In this document: positions 40,937 through 48,050 of the stretch, one piece after another
Numbering within the stretch: the first letter of the stretch is position 1
Layout of the letters: every line of letters starts with the position of its first letter
IMG/VR virus record: IMGVR_UViG_3300034407_002964
Location: 1 to 48,534 of that record
Source of the DNA: a virus
Strand: one strand, 5' to 3'
Length of the DNA stretch: 48,534 bases
Made by a program: the position numbers and the translations under genes
The notes under the pieces: generated by a model
The model's database searches: none
What the model saw: only the letters and a program-made list of their open reading frames with translations
What the model was told of the DNA's origin: nothing

Positions 40937-42186
40937 TGAGTAGGAACTTTAATACAAACAATAAAAGCAAGTCCAAAGAAAGAACCATTGGTCGAGCGAG
41001 ATTTGGATCCATGGCTTACGCAGAGAACAGCGGATTGGGGCCAGCTGTTGTCAATGATCTAAATTTCTTAGAAATGGTTCATTATGGGGTCATTGATAAT
41101 AAAAATAATTCTGTTATTCCAAATGAAGACTTTATTGTCCAAACACAACATGGACGTGTATTCGACTTTGTAGCAGATTCATATTCTCTAATGAGATTAA
41201 ATTTCACCACGGCGGTTCAAAAGGGTCTCGTTTCCGTGGAAGGTTCTGCTTTTTCAAATTTACGAATGGTCGATTCATACAATAATCCTAGGTTAAAATA
41301 TGGAGACTACTTGGGGAATATTCTCCGTTTCTACAACAATACACACATTCCAAACATAGTTGGTATTACCAGTATAGCATCTTATGAAGACTATGTCAAC
41401 AACTTTTTTGACTTTTTATTAAAAAATACTTCTGATAATCCTATAACCCTCACAAGATGGATGTCTTCAAACAAATCTAGGGTACTAGACAGCGGCCTTT
41501 CTTTTTCATACAAAGACATGGAGTATGATGCTGATCAGCAAAAGGTGGACCAAATTATAGATCATCCCTCATTTGATTATTTTAAGAATCTCTGTACAAA
41601 TATGGGTTTTTCAATATTGCATAATAATCCAAACCTACTTTTATTTGATATTAGTTCACCAGCAACAAGATCTATTAGGCAATCATATGGATTATATAAT
41701 TTAACTACTTTATTTAATAATAGATATATAAAAACATATACTATAGATAATAATATCTTATATACTAATATTAATATATATTATAATAAATATGTCCAGA
41801 AAAACTCCCAAACCAAAGTTGTCTCGGTACAATGCGGAAAAACTGTTTCTGAATATATTACACTCAGCCCAGTAGCGAACAACATTAGACCTTACTCTGA
41901 CTTAAAAGAGGTTGACTTATATATAAAACTTAGAAATGTTGAAGAAGGCTCCCCATTTTCAGAGGCAAAGCTCAGAAACATCTATAAAAAATCAAAATAC
42001 TTCATGAAAAAAGTTGACAAACTTGAAGCAATAGGTTATACTAATAGAGTATTCCGTGATCAGGTCTGGAACAAAGACTATGGTTACCATGATGCAAAAG
42101 CCAAATTTGAAAATAAGACAAAGACGCAATCGCAACGAAAACAAGTTGGGGCTAGTTCTCGTAGAGGTGGCAGTCAGTCTTACTAA
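40936..42186 (+). CDS. Hypothetical tail/baseplate protein
   Basis: A 416-residue protein coupled to the previous gene (1-nt overlap). No known motif was recognised. The N-terminus is basic (NTNNKSKSKERTIGRARFGS), the central part mixed with many Tyr/Asn, and the C-terminus basic and Ser/Gly/Arg-rich (QVGASSRRGGSQSY). It lies at the end of the baseplate operon and is probably structural. Codons 252-285 run through an extremely AT-rich patch (41690-41795) encoding Asn/Ile/Tyr/Lys almost only. Confidence 0.65.
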   Translation: MSRNFNTNNKSKSKERTIGRARFGSMAYAENSGLGPAVVNDLNFLEMVHYGVIDNKNNSVIPNEDFIVQTQHGRVFDFVADSYSLMRLNFTTAVQKGLVSVEGSAFSNLRMVDSYNNPRLKYGDYLGNILRFYNNTHIPNIVGITSIASYEDYVNNFFDFLLKNTSDNPITLTRWMSSNKSRVLDSGLSFSYKDMEYDADQQKVDQIIDHPSFDYFKNLCTNMGFSILHNNPNLLLFDISSPATRSIRQSYGLYNLTTLFNNRYIKTYTIDNNILYTNINIYYNKYVQKNSQTKVVSVQCGKTVSEYITLSPVANNIRPYSDLKEVDLYIKLRNVEEGSPFSEAKLRNIYKKSKYFMKKVDKLEAIGYTNRVFRDQVWNKDYGYHDAKAKFENKTKTQSQRKQVGASSRRGGSQSY

Positions 42187-42198
42187 AGTGGAGGACAA

Positions 42199-43386
42199 AT
42201 GCTATTTCAATTAATGGACAATAAGGTCGACTGTGCTGGGACTTATCTCAGTGGCCAATTCATTTGGGACAAAATCCCAGAAGGAATATCACAAACCTGG
42301 TCATACTCTGACCATCTGTTCGGCAGACAGATTGAATATGCCAATTTAATGGTATCTGGGAGGTCGATAGACGACGTTTGTCCTGATCACCTAGTGGAAC
42401 GATGGACTTCAGTCAAAACGTTGCTGAAAGCTCATTTCAAGGCTTTCTCAACATCCAAGATTGACCTTGACGATGTTTGTTTTTACGATGTTGTACCTCA
42501 AAAACACTTGAGACACTACTTTGAAGCGAAGAACGAAATCACCAAATGGGTTTTCGAGAATGTTGAACAACCTGCTAACTATAACTTCTTAAAACGGGTA
42601 CAGGCATCCGTGAAGGAACTGAGTAAATACCCAGTGAACCTAAATTCATTCGCTGTATATATTTCTGCTGCAGATGACTTGAAAGCAAAACATCTTTACG
42701 ACCAGTTCGGTGACACAAAACCAAATGTAGACTTCAATATCTTTGGAACTGTCACTGGGAGATTGACGACGAAAAAAAATTCTTTTCCAATCTTAAACCT
42801 AAAGAAAGAACTCAAGCGTCACGTTAGGCCAAACAACGATGTGTTCCTTGAATTAGACTTCAATGCTGCTGAGGTACGAACGATGCTAGCACTACAAAAT
42901 CACATTCAACCCGAAGGAGACATACATGAATGGAACATCGAAAACGTTTTTGAACAAGAGCTTAGCCGAGAAGAAGCTAAAACAAAATTATTTGCTTGGC
43001 TCTACAACCCTGACTCCAAAACTATACAATCAGATTTCTACGACAGAGAAGGCCTGTTGGAAGAATATTATGACGGAGAGCAAATCAAGACACCTTTTGG
43101 CAGAACAATCACTTGTCCCGTTCGCAAGGCTCTCAACTACTTACTACAATCAAGTTCCTCGGACAACACCCTTGACAGATTTTGCAAAATTTCTAGCCTC
43201 CTTAGGACAACGAGATCCCATGTTGCTTTCGTTGTTCATGATAGCGTTGTCATCGACCTACACAAAGATGACAGAAAGATGATCCCACATTTGGTTAAGG
43301 TTTTTGGTAACACAAGACTTGGAGAGTTCAAAGTTAACTGCTCATTGGGTAAAAACTTAGGAAATATGTCGGAGTTCTCATGGTAG
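42199..43386 (+). CDS. Short family A (Pol I-like) DNA polymerase
   Basis: A 395-residue polymerase domain. VTGRLTTKKNSFPILNLKKE (residues 185-204) corresponds to the Pol I TGRLSS...NLQNIP segment. Motif A is D220 to R227, DFNAAEVR (Pol I DYSQIELR). DIHEWNIENVF (241-251) matches DIHxxTAxxVF. Motif B is intact: R257, K261, F265, Y269. TPFGRTIT and ALNYLLQSSSSD (311-322) follow. Motif C reads VVHDSVVID (345-353): catalytic D348 is kept but the usual HDE Glu is Ser. At 395 residues it is far shorter than Pol I. The first 180 residues show no 3'-5' exonuclease motifs. A GTGGAGGA ribosome site precedes the ATG. T4-type phages normally use a family B polymerase. Confidence 0.85.
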   Translation: MLFQLMDNKVDCAGTYLSGQFIWDKIPEGISQTWSYSDHLFGRQIEYANLMVSGRSIDDVCPDHLVERWTSVKTLLKAHFKAFSTSKIDLDDVCFYDVVPQKHLRHYFEAKNEITKWVFENVEQPANYNFLKRVQASVKELSKYPVNLNSFAVYISAADDLKAKHLYDQFGDTKPNVDFNIFGTVTGRLTTKKNSFPILNLKKELKRHVRPNNDVFLELDFNAAEVRTMLALQNHIQPEGDIHEWNIENVFEQELSREEAKTKLFAWLYNPDSKTIQSDFYDREGLLEEYYDGEQIKTPFGRTITCPVRKALNYLLQSSSSDNTLDRFCKISSLLRTTRSHVAFVVHDSVVIDLHKDDRKMIPHLVKVFGNTRLGEFKVNCSLGKNLGNMSEFSW

Positions 43387-43595
43387 GTTCTCTTGCTATG
43401 TTAACGAATTGTTTGACATCCGGATACAAAAATGGTGAAGTAGGGATCGTTGTAAAGACAGAGAGAGTTGGCGAACTATTTATTCTATATTGGATCATGA
43501 TGTCTGATGGTTTAGAGGTCCCCTTTTGGGATAGTGAATTCGAGGTTATGAGTGAAAAAAGGGGACTTGATAATAATAACACAGCCATTTCCTAA
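43380..43595 (+). CDS. Small beta-barrel-like protein 1
   Basis: A 71-residue protein overlapping the end of the polymerase gene. The segment NGEVGIVVKTERVGELFILY resembles an SH3/KOW-like strand-turn-strand and matches GDVGIVIRVRLYTTLVDVVD in the next gene. An alternative start at ATG 43398 (MLTNCLTSGYK) is possible and would place the barrel at the N-terminus. The last residues (SEKRGLDNNNTAIS) overlap the next gene in another frame. Function unknown. Confidence 0.6.
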   Translation: MVGSLAMLTNCLTSGYKNGEVGIVVKTERVGELFILYWIMMSDGLEVPFWDSEFEVMSEKRGLDNNNTAIS

Positions 43596-43755
43596 TTGGG
43601 AATGGTTAGATTATAATACTGGAGATGTTGGAATTGTGATTAGAGTAAGACTTTATACTACTCTTGTGGACGTAGTGGATGTGTTTTTCTTTCACAACGA
43701 AGAGCGCCATCCAGTACCGATAGATTTTTTAAAAAAACTTGGGAGTGAGATATGA
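43552..43755 (+). CDS. Small beta-barrel-like protein 2
   Basis: A 67-residue protein from a GTG start (MKKGDLIIITQPFPNWEWLD), with GAGG about 8 nt upstream. GDVGIVIRVRLYTTLVDVVD (residues 24-43) and HPVPIDFLKKLG near the end give the strand pattern of a small SH3/KOW-like barrel, paralogous to the protein before it and to that at 44740. It overlaps the tubulin-like gene by 4 nt (ATGA), so it is translated in line with it and may act in the same process. Confidence 0.65.
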   Translation: MKKGDLIIITQPFPNWEWLDYNTGDVGIVIRVRLYTTLVDVVDVFFFHNEERHPVPIDFLKKLGSEI

Positions 43756-44561
43756 TTTTGGTCGGCCTTGGTCAAGCAGGTAATAATATAGTGAAATTGT
43801 TTAAACCACATACAAAAAACTATAAAATTATTTTTCTTGACGAAAACAATGGTATTGAAAAAAGAGATTCCGTTGAAGAATATGATGAGCACAAGATAGT
43901 GTTTAAGCAGAGAGGTCTCAAATCTCACTCTAAAGCAGCTTTATTTGTTTGTGGGTCTGGTAAGATAGCTGGGGCTTCTTTGAGGGTTCTAGAGGCATTA
44001 GCGGGCTGGGAAACAACTGTATTTTACATTGTTCCTGATCTTGAGTTCGCATCTCGAGAAGAAAAGAGGAGGCATCGCGCCCACTTTGGTATATTACAAG
44101 AGTATGCGCGGTCTGGTAAGGTAAAAGAAATGGTCATCTTGTCGAACGAGAAGATTATTTCAATTGTTGGATATGGAACAGCACTAAACTACTACGAAAA
44201 AGTCAATTTTTTTATTTACAACACTATACAGAACATTATGTATTGCAGACATGTCGACCCAGACTTTGGTAGTATAAAAGAAAAAAGAGAAATATCTCGA
44301 ATATCAACAATAGGCTTGGGCAAACTAAAAGAAGAAGAAAGATTATTGTTCCCTCTTTCAAACATAACGGAATCGATGTTCCTAATGAACATTGAAGAAG
44401 AAGATTTAAATGGCGACATTGAGATCATCCCACGTTGTCAACAAATCGTCAGAAAAGCTAAGCTGGAAGAACGCGATGCTTCTTTCGCAATTTGGAAATC
44501 TTCTGAAGACAACCATTTCTATTCATTGCATTACACACATTTTATACAGGAAATTAAATGA
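43752..44561 (+). CDS. Tubulin/FtsZ-like GTPase (divergent)
   Basis: A 269-residue protein that follows the FtsZ/tubulin domain order. Strand 1 plus G-box: MILVGLGQAGNNIVKLF (residues 1-17, cf. tubulin QAGNQI). T4 phosphate loop, reduced: FVCGSGKIAGASLRVLEAL (65-83, cf. GGGTGSG). EFASREEKRRHRAHFGILQE (98-117) and MVILSNEKI (127-135) match the FtsZ FEGxxRxxxAxxG and IVIPNDxL segments. Helix 7 NYYEKVNFFIYNTIQNI (146-162) leads to a T7-like DPDFGS (169-174). The C-terminal domain has MFLMNIEEEDLNGDIEI (209-225, cf. VLLNITGG-DLTLxEV) and SFAIWKSSEDNHFYSLHYTH. Such proteins polymerise with GTP and can position phage DNA or capsids. The altered glycine loop leaves GTPase activity uncertain. Confidence 0.72.
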   Translation: MILVGLGQAGNNIVKLFKPHTKNYKIIFLDENNGIEKRDSVEEYDEHKIVFKQRGLKSHSKAALFVCGSGKIAGASLRVLEALAGWETTVFYIVPDLEFASREEKRRHRAHFGILQEYARSGKVKEMVILSNEKIISIVGYGTALNYYEKVNFFIYNTIQNIMYCRHVDPDFGSIKEKREISRISTIGLGKLKEEERLLFPLSNITESMFLMNIEEEDLNGDIEIIPRCQQIVRKAKLEERDASFAIWKSSEDNHFYSLHYTHFIQEIK

Positions 44562-44743
44562 ACAAAGAAAAAATAAAAAGTGAACTGAGAAGACTTCTAC
44601 AAGCAGAGGAGACGCTTCTAGTCAATTTTGCATTGGATAGTCATTGCACTATAGAGGAGTTGTGTTATATTTCTTCAAAAATATTTGAAATGAGCAATCT
44701 CATTTTAAAATTAAAACAAGCATTAAAGGATATGAGAAGATGA
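44558..44743 (+). CDS. Small helical protein coupled to the tubulin-like gene
   Basis: A 61-residue, two-helix protein (MNKEKIKSELRRLLQAEETL; SKIFEMSNLILKLKQALKDM) overlapping the tubulin-like gene by 4 nt and the next gene by 4 nt. It carries one pair of Cys (HCTIEELC). There is no DNA-binding motif that I can recognise. Its coupling suggests a partner or regulator of the tubulin-like protein, by position only. Confidence 0.65.
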   Translation: MNKEKIKSELRRLLQAEETLLVNFALDSHCTIEELCYISSKIFEMSNLILKLKQALKDMRR

Positions 44744-44959: not shown

Positions 44960-45454
44960 ATGGTTGATCAAATTTACTACAACATGTGGGGTAGCCAAAG
45001 CGAAGAGCACAAGGACTACTTTCAAACAATAGGGACTATTGCTAACTGGATTGGTTATGCACTGATAGGTCCGAGACACAAGCCTTACAGGACAGAGATT
45101 ATGCCACTGTCAAACATAGCAGTGCTTCAAACAAAAGAAAAGTTTGGCTCACCTAGGGTTTACGTCTCATTTAGCAAAGAGACGCATTTGCAAGACGCAA
45201 GACACTATAGGCATGTCTACAAGACAGCAATCAAGCTGTTTCCTCAATATGAGAAAGCAATAAGAGATGGTATGGACTACTCAACTTATCTATTTGATAC
45301 ACAAGAGCAATTAGATGAGTACATTGCAACCCAAATTGAATGGGCTGAGAGAGTAAGAGATGGTGGAGATACCAACGAGGATTGGTTCATCGCAAAAATG
45401 GACTCAATTAAAGAAAATGAAACTTTTATAAAAAAAGTTTGTCTTTTTACTTGA
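44960..45454 (+). CDS. Hypothetical early protein
   Basis: A 164-residue soluble protein with a strong ribosome site (TTGGAGGAT) under promoter P1. It starts MVDQIYYNMWGSQSEEHKDY and contains an alternating Arg/His/Tyr segment (HLQDARHYRHVYKTAIKLFP) and an acidic C-terminal helix region. No motif was recognised. The short leader and separate promoter suggest early expression; a host-takeover role is possible but unsupported. Confidence 0.7.
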   Translation: MVDQIYYNMWGSQSEEHKDYFQTIGTIANWIGYALIGPRHKPYRTEIMPLSNIAVLQTKEKFGSPRVYVSFSKETHLQDARHYRHVYKTAIKLFPQYEKAIRDGMDYSTYLFDTQEQLDEYIATQIEWAERVRDGGDTNEDWFIAKMDSIKENETFIKKVCLFT

Positions 45455-45479
45455 CAACACATCTTAAACATGTTATATT
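45451..45479 (+). promoter_or_regulatory. Sigma-70-type promoter P2
   Basis: TTGACA (45451-45456), 17-nt spacer, TGT TATATT (-10 at 45474-45479) then ATAAG. It overlaps the stop codon of the preceding gene. It drives the 25-residue microprotein at 45507. Confidence 0.85.
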
Positions 45480-45506
45480 ATAAGTATAACAAATGAGGAA
45501 AACAAA

Positions 45507-45584: not shown

Positions 45585-45602
45585 AAAACTTTAAAAAAAT
45601 AC

Positions 45603-45631
45603 TTGACAAGGTATCAAAACTATGTTATATT
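45603..45631 (+). promoter_or_regulatory. Sigma-70-type promoter P3
   Basis: TTGACA (45603-45608), 17-nt spacer, TGT TATATT (-10 at 45626-45631) then ATAATAG. It drives the gene at 45663. Confidence 0.85.
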
Positions 45632-45662
45632 ATAATAGTCAAACAATATTCTAGGAGGAATT

Positions 45663-45929
45663 ATGACCAACACAAACAACACAAACACTATGACCGTATA
45701 CACCGGAACTTTTGTAACGCAACGTGGCGAGCAACGAACAATGAACTTCGTTCGCATGTCAGAAGCACCAGATGGGGTATTCCCTATGACCTTGCGTTCA
45801 CGTAATTTACAACCCGGCTATGAAACCGTGTGGGATATTGATCGTCAACAATACCGCACATTCAACTCCAATACTCAAATTGGATCTATCTCGAGTTCAT
45901 CTCGTGATGTAAGCATTAGATTGTTTTAG
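45663..45929 (+). CDS. Hypothetical early protein
   Basis: An 88-residue protein with an ideal AGGAGG ribosome site. It starts with an Asn/Thr stretch, then TVYTGTFVTQRGEQRTMNFV (residues 11-30), PMTLRSRNLQPGYETVWDID and FNSNTQIGSIS. I have a vague memory of similar small beta proteins in other phages (a GTF-x-x-x-x-GE-x-RTMNFVR pattern) but no assigned function. Two terminators follow, so it is a short monocistronic early unit. Confidence 0.7.
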   Translation: MTNTNNTNTMTVYTGTFVTQRGEQRTMNFVRMSEAPDGVFPMTLRSRNLQPGYETVWDIDRQQYRTFNSNTQIGSISSSSRDVSIRLF

Positions 45930-46041: not shown

Positions 46042-46118
46042 GCACTCGTAGTTCAGTTGGATAGAACATCTGCCTTCTAAGCAGAGGGTCGCAGGTTCGA
46101 ATCCTGCCGAGTGTGCCA
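46042..46118 (+). tRNA. tRNA-Arg (anticodon UCU)
   Basis: A complete 77-nt cloverleaf: acceptor GCACTCG/CGAGTGT, D stem GTTC/GAAC, anticodon stem TCTGC/GCAGA with loop CTTCTAA (anticodon TCT at 46076-46078), T stem GCAGG/CCTGC with TTCGAAT loop, and encoded CCA (46116-46118). It decodes AGA, the favoured Arg codon of most genes in the window. Confidence 0.95.
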
Positions 46119-46452: not shown

Positions 46453-46481
46453 TTGACAAACCTTTTTAAATATGTTATAAT
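46453..46481 (+). promoter_or_regulatory. Sigma-70-type promoter P4 for gp32
   Basis: TTGACA (46453-46458), 17-nt spacer, extended -10 TGT TATAAT (46476-46481), the consensus form of the four. It drives the ssDNA-binding protein gene with a leader of about 95 nt. Confidence 0.88.
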
Positions 46482-46582: not shown

Positions 46583-47356
46583 ATGGCTATCAATATAGAA
46601 GCAATGCGAGCGAAGCTCGATCAATCAAAAAACGGTGGAAAATCTACCGGACGTAAGAGTACAATGTGGAAACCAAGTGCTGGTGACCAAAACATTCGTA
46701 TTTTACCAACAGCGGATGGCGATCCGTTCCGTGAGTTCCACTTTCATTACAATGTAGGAAAGAACCCTGGAATTTACTGCAACAAGCGAAACGATGGTGG
46801 TGAATGTGCCATCTGTGATTTCGCATCAAAACTTTGGCGAGAAGGTACTGAAACAGACGATCAGAATCTTAAAAACGAAGCCAAAAAACTATTCGCTCGA
46901 AAGCGATACTATTCCCCTGTTCTTGTTCGTGGAAACGAAGCAGATGGTGTAAAAATATGGGCATATGGTAAAACAGCTTATGAAACCCTCTTGGGCTATG
47001 TATTGGATCCGGACTATGGTGACATCACAGATGCTGAAGTAGGAACTGACATTAAGTTGACTTATTCTATCCCTGGAACACCTGGTTCTTTCCCTAAGAC
47101 AGTGTTACAGCCTCGACGTCGCCCATCTATTTTGTGCGATGACAGTGTTGCTGACTGTCAACAGTTGTTAGATTCTGTTCCTGACATTGATAATTTGTTT
47201 GATGTTAAGACTACAGAAGAAATTCAGGCTTTGCTGGATGGTTACTTGTCCTCCGACACTTCAGCAGAGTCTTCTTCTAATGAGACACAACAATATAACA
47301 AAAAAACAGGTGAGAGTGTTGACAAAGCATTCGCTGCTTTCATGAGCGAAGACTGA
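46583..47356 (+). CDS. 32: Single-stranded DNA-binding protein (gp32-like)
   Basis: A 257-residue ssDNA-binding protein that coats replication and recombination intermediates. Basic N-terminal segment (MRAKLDQSKNGGKSTGRKST) for cooperative binding; TMWKPSAGDQNIRILPTADG (27-46) is the gp32 OB-fold start. Zinc ligands fit H55-x10-C66-x8-C75-x2-C78, in FHYNVGKNPGIYCNKRNDGG and ECAIC, close to the T4 His-Cys3 pattern. KKLFARKRYYSPVLVRG (105-121) follows. The C-terminus is Ser/Asp-rich with FAAFMSED, the acidic partner-binding tail. T4 gp32 is 301 residues. Own promoter P4 and downstream terminator. Confidence 0.95.
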   Translation: MAINIEAMRAKLDQSKNGGKSTGRKSTMWKPSAGDQNIRILPTADGDPFREFHFHYNVGKNPGIYCNKRNDGGECAICDFASKLWREGTETDDQNLKNEAKKLFARKRYYSPVLVRGNEADGVKIWAYGKTAYETLLGYVLDPDYGDITDAEVGTDIKLTYSIPGTPGSFPKTVLQPRRRPSILCDDSVADCQQLLDSVPDIDNLFDVKTTEEIQALLDGYLSSDTSAESSSNETQQYNKKTGESVDKAFAAFMSED

Positions 47357-47384: not shown

Positions 47385-47422
47385 GCCGCCCGCCCTTGGT
47401 TGCTAAAGGGGCGGCTTTTTTT
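47385..47422 (+). terminator. Intrinsic terminator after gp32 gene
   Basis: GCCGCCC (47385-47391) pairs perfectly with GGGCGGC (47409-47415), followed by seven T residues (47416-47422). Confidence 0.92.
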
Positions 47423-47438
47423 ATTTAAAGGAGACGAT

Positions 47439-48050
47439 ATGTTGTGGAAAAGAAATGTCGACAGTAATATAAAATCTGTTGAACTAAGAAGTAGTCCAGT
47501 TATCATCAGAGTTAATAAGTTTGATGAAAAATCAGCGAAGGAATTCGCAGAAAAAATAGCCTCAGCGCATAATACCGGCCAATCTGTCATTCCGGTAATC
47601 ATTGATTCGTATGGAGGTCAAGTTTATTCTCTCATGAGTATGATTGCCTCTATTAAGAACTCTGAATTACCAGTGGCTACCATAGTGGAAGGAAAGGCTA
47701 TGAGTTGTGGAGTTATCCTGTTTTCTTGTGGAACAGAAGGATATCGCTACATAACAGAGGACGCAACCTTGATGATCCACGATGTAAGTTCTGCTTCATG
47801 GGGCAAGAACTCGGAGATCCAAGCTAGCGCAGAAGAAGTTAAGCGTTTGAATGAGAAGATTTACAAGATCTTATCAGCGAATTCGAACAAATCAGAGAAA
47901 TGGTTTAACAAACAGTTAAATGAGAAGGGTCGAGCTGACTGGTTCATTGAATCCAAAGAAGCTATTGACCTTGGACTTGCCGACAAAATTGGTATGCCAA
48001 AATTAGAAATAAATATAAAATTAGACATAAACTTACAGGAGGTAACATGA
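47439..48050 (+). CDS. ClpP-like serine protease
   Basis: A 203-residue protein. ATG 47439 has AAGGAG 6 nt upstream; a longer start at 47400 would lie in the terminator. The ClpP/crotonase-like fold is shown by IPVIIDSYGGQVYSLMSMIA (residues 51-70, cf. SPGG) and VEGKAMSCGVILFSCG, with nucleophile S89. H114 is in LMIHDVSS and D167 in GRADWFIESKEA, followed by GLADKIG. All three catalytic residues are thus present. ClpP tetradecamers degrade proteins fed by an AAA+ unfoldase, or act alone on peptides. A gp21 protease is present elsewhere, so this is not the prohead protease. It may alter host proteolysis early in infection. Confidence 0.85.
   Translation: MLWKRNVDSNIKSVELRSSPVIIRVNKFDEKSAKEFAEKIASAHNTGQSVIPVIIDSYGGQVYSLMSMIASIKNSELPVATIVEGKAMSCGVILFSCGTEGYRYITEDATLMIHDVSSASWGKNSEIQASAEEVKRLNEKIYKILSANSNKSEKWFNKQLNEKGRADWFIESKEAIDLGLADKIGMPKLEINIKLDINLQEVT

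Follow-up and report, generated by a model that had tools for sequence, protein, structure and literature searches.

The window that we analyzed, i.e., the whole 48,534-nucleotide stretch at positions 1 to 48,534 of IMG/VR record IMGVR_UViG_3300034407_002964, comes from an uncultured ocean virus of bacteria. On the + strand, at exactly 43752–44561, it contains an open reading frame (ORF) encoding a 269-aa protein, and inspection of the ORF list and the translation confirmed that this frame carries all the motifs quoted in the original prediction of a tubulin/FtsZ-like gene. Homologues of the protein were identified in well over 150 IMG/VR loci, and close pairs of the gene gave dN/dS values of 0.06–0.09 (about 0.07), on par with the neighboring polA. 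Because homologues are present in many IMG/VR contigs and the gene is under purifying selection, we class 43752–44561 as a true gene and not as a chance frame. Its annotation as a gene for a protein of the tubulin/FtsZ fold draws on the ORF itself, on family alignments (A1–A6 and A8), on an AlphaFold2 model, and on fold matches in the PDB.

The tubulin-like gene is located in a replication module whose features described here are likewise on the + strand. Its invariant upstream neighbor (131/131 loci with enough sequence downstream) is a gene for a family-A DNA polymerase, polA, at 42199–43386 (Pfam DNA_pol_A, 8e-10), upstream of which a sigma-70-like promoter sequence (TTGACA-17-TATACT) at 42014–42042 agrees with the consensus at 11 of 12 positions, this being a consensus match only. 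Two small ORFs are located between polA and the tubulin-like gene: one at 43380–43595 encodes a member of family F8, found in 13 of 39 loci, and the second, at 43552–43755, overlaps the start of the tubulin-like gene by 4 bases and encodes a protein resembling family F9, members of which are present in other loci. A 4-base overlap is also present at the stop of the tubulin-like gene, with the ORF of a 61-aa protein of family F10 (44558–44743; 11/39 loci). Between this point and the downstream gene for a gp32-type single-strand DNA-binding protein (46583–47356; Pfam gp32, 1.9e-13; 35/39 loci) is a gene for a conserved 88-aa protein of family F4 (45663–45929; 31/39 loci). Over the 39 loci compared, the gene order is F3 (a large protein), F5, polA, small genes, the tubulin-like gene, small genes, F4, and gp32; beyond gp32 come genes resembling those for UvsX/RecA and a 5′-3′ exonuclease.

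Our examination of this region also identified a ClpP-like protease gene directly after gp32 (47400–48050; 6 of the 39 loci) and a tRNA-Arg (TCT) at 46042–46118, with a tRNA-Arg of the same anticodon present near the same module in a 184-kb relative. Near-identical 36-nt promoter-like repeats, with a perfect TTGACA and an extended -10, occur at 45448–45483 and 45600–45635, and also at 46453–46481; these are probably early promoters for the host sigma-70. In addition, family F18 (L002:13221–14081 and L009:15480–16391) is conserved, and the start of its proteins resembles, by eye, the core of an aminoacyl-tRNA synthetase (RPYDNSTLFCPAGMQQFK).

The contig contains T4-type genes for the large terminase, portal, gp23 capsid, sheath, baseplate hub, and gp32, and the T4-type terminase, portal, gp23, sheath, and gp32 bear out the assignment of this virus as a T4-like phage. 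The nearest cultured capsids are those of Microcystis phage Mel-JY01, the Flavobacterium phages immuto, and Rhodothermus phage RM378, which points to the far-T4 side, RM378 being the reference phage of the “far-T4” group (PMC4360716). A 184-kb member of the lineage encodes DnaE-type polymerase genes, DnaB, and gp32. In this relative (contig of L008; L270:5416–10216 and L269:15549–17138), a two-part DnaE-type DNA polymerase III alpha is found together with a family-A polymerase, a LAGLIDADG protein located between the two DnaE parts is probably an intein, and a GroEL-type chaperonin is also present. A class II (B12-dependent) ribonucleotide reductase is encoded in pieces, with an intein splicing domain, at L271:444–3639.

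Sequence and Predicted Structure of the Tubulin-Like Protein

Single-sequence Pfam and PHROG searches with the tubulin-like protein identified no family, PHROG searches with divergent members of its family were likewise empty, and PF00091 has no match in the window. The NCBIfam FtsZ model TIGR00065 aligns with the window protein at E = 0.003 (residues 103–163 on 146–203) and 16.9 bits, far under the cut-off of 295.2, and is sub-threshold in three family members in a single register (E = 0.003, 0.024, and 0.032). By these searches, the protein is outside every Pfam, PHROG, and NCBIfam family. Profile–profile alignment of the tubulin-like family with seven FtsZ sequences using hhalign was collinear across the whole GTPase domain and the T7 loop (P = 0.005), in the same register as the TIGR00065 match to the window protein; a deeper alignment gave P = 0.012, and two unrelated alignments used as controls gave 0.28 and 0.32. 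On one path, GLGQAGNN is set against the FtsZ G-box, CGSGKIAGAS against the GGGTGTGA loop, ILSNEK against IPNDK, and DPDFGS against NVDFAD, which is the order of motifs that had been read from the sequence in the original prediction. Sequence-profile searches of the PDB found only FtsZ and Rossmann proteins, at E of about 0.1–2, with FtsZ at about 1. Taken alone, the sequence evidence for kinship with tubulin and FtsZ is marginal.

Structure prediction, which had been proposed as a check against FtsZ, TubZ, and PhuZ, was run with AlphaFold2. An earlier model built from 15 close homologues had a pLDDT of 55, yet its top structural matches were FtsZ and tubulin; because this model was poor, the alignment was broadened to 70 diverse homologues, from which a model made without templates reached a pLDDT of 94.2 and a pTM of 0.91. 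The top fifty matches in a Foldseek search of the PDB are FtsZ, TubZ, CetZ, and tubulin (best E = 2e-10, to FtsZ; TM 0.67–0.71), and VIA-align gave Z-scores of 23.6 for CetZ (2.9 Å over 248 residues), 22.3 for TubZ (over 265 residues), 21.8 for FtsZ, and about 20 for tubulin. The VIA-align matches span model residues 1–269, i.e., the N-terminal GTPase domain, the central helix 7, and the C-terminal domain, with the last of these (residues 181–266; 44292–44549) consisting, by DSSP of the model, of four strands and one long helix. No helix is present in the model between T7 and strand S7, and none ahead of strand S8, so that H8 and H9 of FtsZ are missing under our own assignment of strand and helix names. 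On the basis of this model, the protein almost certainly has a complete tubulin/FtsZ fold comprising both domains, as had been proposed.

Weak N-terminal matches to TrkA_N, KtrA, and 6-phosphogluconate dehydrogenase are what would be expected if this were a Rossmann protein or enzyme binding a nucleotide or dinucleotide, with its likeness to FtsZ confined to the first half. We regard this reading as extremely unlikely, in that these matches end near residue 90, while both tubulin domains, helix 7 among them, are covered by the model and by all the top structural matches. The contrary result named in the original prediction, a plain Rossmann fold lacking helix 7 and the C-terminal domain, is therefore excluded at the level of the model.

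Conservation of the Nucleotide Site and the T7 Loop

Residues were counted over 41 clusters (80% identity) for the clade of the window and over 74 clusters for the whole family. The T1 (G-box) loop, GLGQAGNNI (residues 5–13; 43764–43790), aligns with FtsZ GVGGGGGNAV, and its glycines are invariant in the clade of the window; across the whole family, G5 and G7 are present in 74/74 clusters and G10 in 73/74. The T4 glycine loop, CGSGKIAGA (residues 67–75; 43950–43976), is by profile–profile alignment a degenerate form of the GGGTGTGA loop. In the clade of the window, G68 is present in 41/41, G70 in 39/41, and both K71 and G74 in 37/41 clusters, with looser conservation in the wider family. Most members read GSGK[IV][AS]G here, versus GGGTGTG, and the tubulin signature [SAG]GGTG[SAT]G is absent from the T4 loop of the family, in agreement with the degenerate phosphate loop noted in the original prediction.

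The positions aligned with those that contact the guanine base are conserved. N132 (44145–44147), which aligns with the T6 Asn of FtsZ IPNDK, is found in 41/41 clusters of the clade and 69/74 of the family, position 148 is aromatic (Tyr or Phe) in 41/41 clusters of the clade, and N152 is present in 40/41 and 69/74, respectively. Y148 and N152 mark the start of helix 7 (44193–44252), which proper covers model residues 149–167. We take N132, Y148, and N152 to be equivalent to the guanine-contact positions N206, Y224, and N228 of tubulin, with the same Tyr-x3-Asn arrangement at the start of helix 7. The conservation of these base-contact residues suggests that the protein binds a guanine nucleotide.

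The T7-like loop, VDPDFGSI (residues 168–175; 44253–44276), aligns with FtsZ NVDFADV and has S174 at the position of the second catalytic acid. Within the clade of the window, the first acid (position 171) is D/E in 28 of 41 clusters and the second (position 174) is acidic in none of the 41, and in the whole family, over which the alignment of this loop is uncertain, the corresponding counts are 19/74 and 5/74. The T7-loop acid that completes the GTPase site of the neighboring subunit is thus not conserved in the tubulin-like family. Entropies of 0.99 bits for T1, 1.54 for T4, and 2.10 for T7, versus 2.03 for the whole protein, indicate that the nucleotide side is conserved above average and that the T7 loop is average. 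The most conserved helix, FGILQEYARSG (residues 112–122; 44085–44117; 0.98 versus 2.03 bits), includes in its LQEYARSG portion Q116 and R120, both present in 74/74 clusters, and we can name no equivalent role for this helix among known tubulins. Conservation also extends to R183, I184, and T186, near the T7 side.

Filaments of phiKZ TubZ, tubulin, and FtsZ have an interface made up of T7, the base of H8, and S9 (PMC3678025). Since the T7 loop and its second acid are unconserved, and H8 is missing from the model at this interface, a canonical protofilament is not assured, and the lack of both the second T7 acid and H8 points to weak or absent hydrolysis in such a protofilament.

The Tubulin-Like Gene Is a Core Gene of a Marine Far-T4 Lineage

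To ask if the tubulin-like gene is optional, we ran two scans that started from the neighboring family-A DNA polymerase rather than from the gene itself, each retaining the best 80 out of more than 530 relatives of the polymerase. Where at least 1.5 kb of sequence is present downstream of polA, the tubulin-like gene was found in 63/63 loci of one best-80 scan and 68/68 of the other, i.e., in 131/131, with at least two contigs shared between the scans. Identity among members of the family extends down to 21%. Of 105 loci, 40 have the start of the gene no more than 10 nt from the polA stop, mostly with a 7- or 4-nt overlap, and the identity matrices of the tubulin-like protein and PolA are closely correlated (r = 0.92, 100 loci, 0/999 permutations). 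The tubulin-like gene thus belongs to the core gene set of a large marine lineage of uncultured far-T4 phages, situated in the replication module, and not an odd extra in one phage, as the original prediction had implied.

No homologue was found among 50,697 phage records, and GTDB genome contigs also contained none. A profile search of Mel-JY01, immuto, RM378, two huge phages, and one Alishewanella phage showed the family to be absent, and the polA–gp32 interval of Mel-JY01, which we read for a hidden homologue, holds other genes only. Because the profile search did not find the gene in the nearest relatives in culture, we place its gain, or its loss, on the branch to the marine lineage. Two matches were taken as chance: a tblastn match in phage HMO-2011 (E = 0.9) is located inside a 1,128-aa protein, and a second match, in the 184-kb contig (L184), has four stops within it.

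These findings also bear on the proposal, part of the original prediction, that the protein acts on host FtsZ, i.e., that it is an inhibitor copying one FtsZ face, which caps or poisons host FtsZ filaments so that division is stopped during infection. Anti-host genes usually turn over fast, whereas this gene is present at all loci tested and keeps pace with polA in its evolution, with a dN/dS of about 0.07. FtsZ is indeed targeted by phages, for example by lambda Kil (PMC3961180), T5 Hdi (PMC10714956), and T7 Gp0.4 (PMC13423816), but none of these inhibitors, which are short peptides or small proteins, is related to tubulin, and the window protein has no specific similarity to host FtsZ (16.9 bits versus a cut-off of 295). 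The loss of conserved T7-loop residues keeps capping in consideration, in that a degenerate catalytic T7 side may fit a cap that accepts subunits but does not pass them on. We nevertheless consider capping improbable, since the linkage to polA, the co-variation, and the housekeeping-level constraint fit a role in replication better.

Comparison with Known Tubulin-Fold Proteins

The known phage tubulins come from jumbo phages that form a nucleus and from plasmid-like phages. PhuZ of phiKZ/201phi2-1 is similar to the protein described here in being a phage-encoded tubulin fold, present in single copy in large myoviruses, and tied to the handling of replicated phage DNA. The two have no detectable sequence relationship, however, as hhalign aligns the G-box only (P = 0.007–0.07). 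PhuZ is 315–327 aa, versus 269 aa for the tubulin-like protein, which, unlike PhuZ, lacks the T7 acid and an acidic C-terminal tail and is encoded in the polA–gp32 module of a T4-like phage. A tblastn search of 180 kb of the 184-kb contig with the nucleus shell protein 201phi2-1 gp105 (chimallin) gave no match, BLAST being weak here.

FtsZ has the whole fold in common with the tubulin-like protein, with a collinear G-box, T4 loop, N of T6, helix 7, and T7, at about 12–15% identity. In contrast to FtsZ, the tubulin-like protein has a degenerate glycine loop, lacks the second T7 acid (in the clade of the window) and H8/H9 (in the model), and is without the C-terminal linker/conserved peptide, as it stops a few residues past the last strand. 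CetZ, an archaeal cell-shape protein of about 330–390 residues, gave the highest structural Z of all, but no sequence-level link to it was found. The presence of TubZ, which serves plasmid/phage partition, among the best structural matches could indicate a protein that segregates phage DNA via a TubR-like adaptor on a centromere. This is very unlikely, given that the region from 41.5 to 47.5 kb has no repeated centromere-like array, that the small neighbors examined have no helix-turn-helix family match, and that the phage genes look lytic. The tubulin-like protein is also much shorter than TubZ, and no TubR/tubC was found.

The best viral structural match in BFVD is A0A6J5RW92 (“FtsZ”, uncultured Caudovirales phage; E = 4e-10, TM 0.74), a 452-aa protein with 12% identity to the tubulin-like protein. 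Since BFVD has other phage tubulin-fold proteins, being a phage tubulin is not in itself novel; the novelty lies in which lineage carries it, in its minimal architecture, and in its core linkage to replication. In the open-access literature, we found no mention of such a protein in the far-T4 paper (PMC4360716) or in a jumbo-phage review (PMC13282480). Because the tubulin signature and the T7 acid are missing, we file the protein as a new family in the fold, under no named one. This agrees with the new branch that had been predicted, with the protein placed by fold within the tubulin/FtsZ superfamily and matching no named family.

A Proposed Role in Phage Replication

Operon position by itself is no proof of function. 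Since the tubulin-like gene strictly accompanies polA and gp32, without a single absence, and evolves at the rate of polA, the simplest reading is that it encodes a component of the replication module, and we consider a replication-linked role likely. Our explanation as a whole, which we favor slightly, is that a stripped-down tubulin-fold protein in the far-T4 replication module acts, with GTP bound, as a scaffold or positioning polymer. The protein would be made early, along with the polymerase, would bind a guanine nucleotide at the conserved site, and would assemble head to tail, either alone or on a partner. The assembly would be a nucleotide-bound scaffold with slow or no hydrolysis, and would gather or position replicating phage DNA in a PhuZ-like manner, with separate descent. 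The scaffold or polymer step is the tentative part of this explanation, and we place its chances a little short of even.

The same linkage could also be explained by a tubulin fold that does not polymerize, i.e., by a replisome accessory subunit or switch that binds a nucleotide and contacts PolA, gp32, or both. The overlap or near-overlap of the gene with polA in many loci and the correlation of 0.92 with PolA are in keeping with such a subunit, as are the absence of H8 and H9 from the model and the conservation of T1, T4, and the base contacts next to a T7 loop conserved no more than average, and the helix with the invariant Q116 and R120 could serve as its partner surface. The conserved R183, I184, and T186 near the T7 side are, on the other hand, explicable by a polymer interface, and we know of no tubulin homologue that is a replisome accessory, which counts against this reading. 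We rank it after the scaffold and ahead of FtsZ capping, and consider it unlikely, though worth keeping in view. Equally unlikely is its boldest version, in which the protein is an obligate partner of the phage DNA polymerase in the replisome of a lineage that is among the more widespread of uncultured marine phages, with GTP binding acting as a switch and not as the driver of a filament, and with the tubulin fold at work outside the cytoskeleton.

PhuZ is non-essential, and many chimallin phages are without it (PMC13282480). Phage tubulins are thus often dispensable, whereas the tubulin-like gene of the marine far-T4 lineage is never absent where this can be checked. If the protein polymerizes, T4-like phages of ordinary size would also rely on a cytoskeleton to organize their replication. 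Should it not polymerize, it would be a replication factor built on the tubulin fold, and no earlier example of such a factor is known to us. Either way, the family offers a handle on the capabilities of the smallest tubulin core, and its gene, which is without annotation in the libraries we searched, is a missed hallmark gene.
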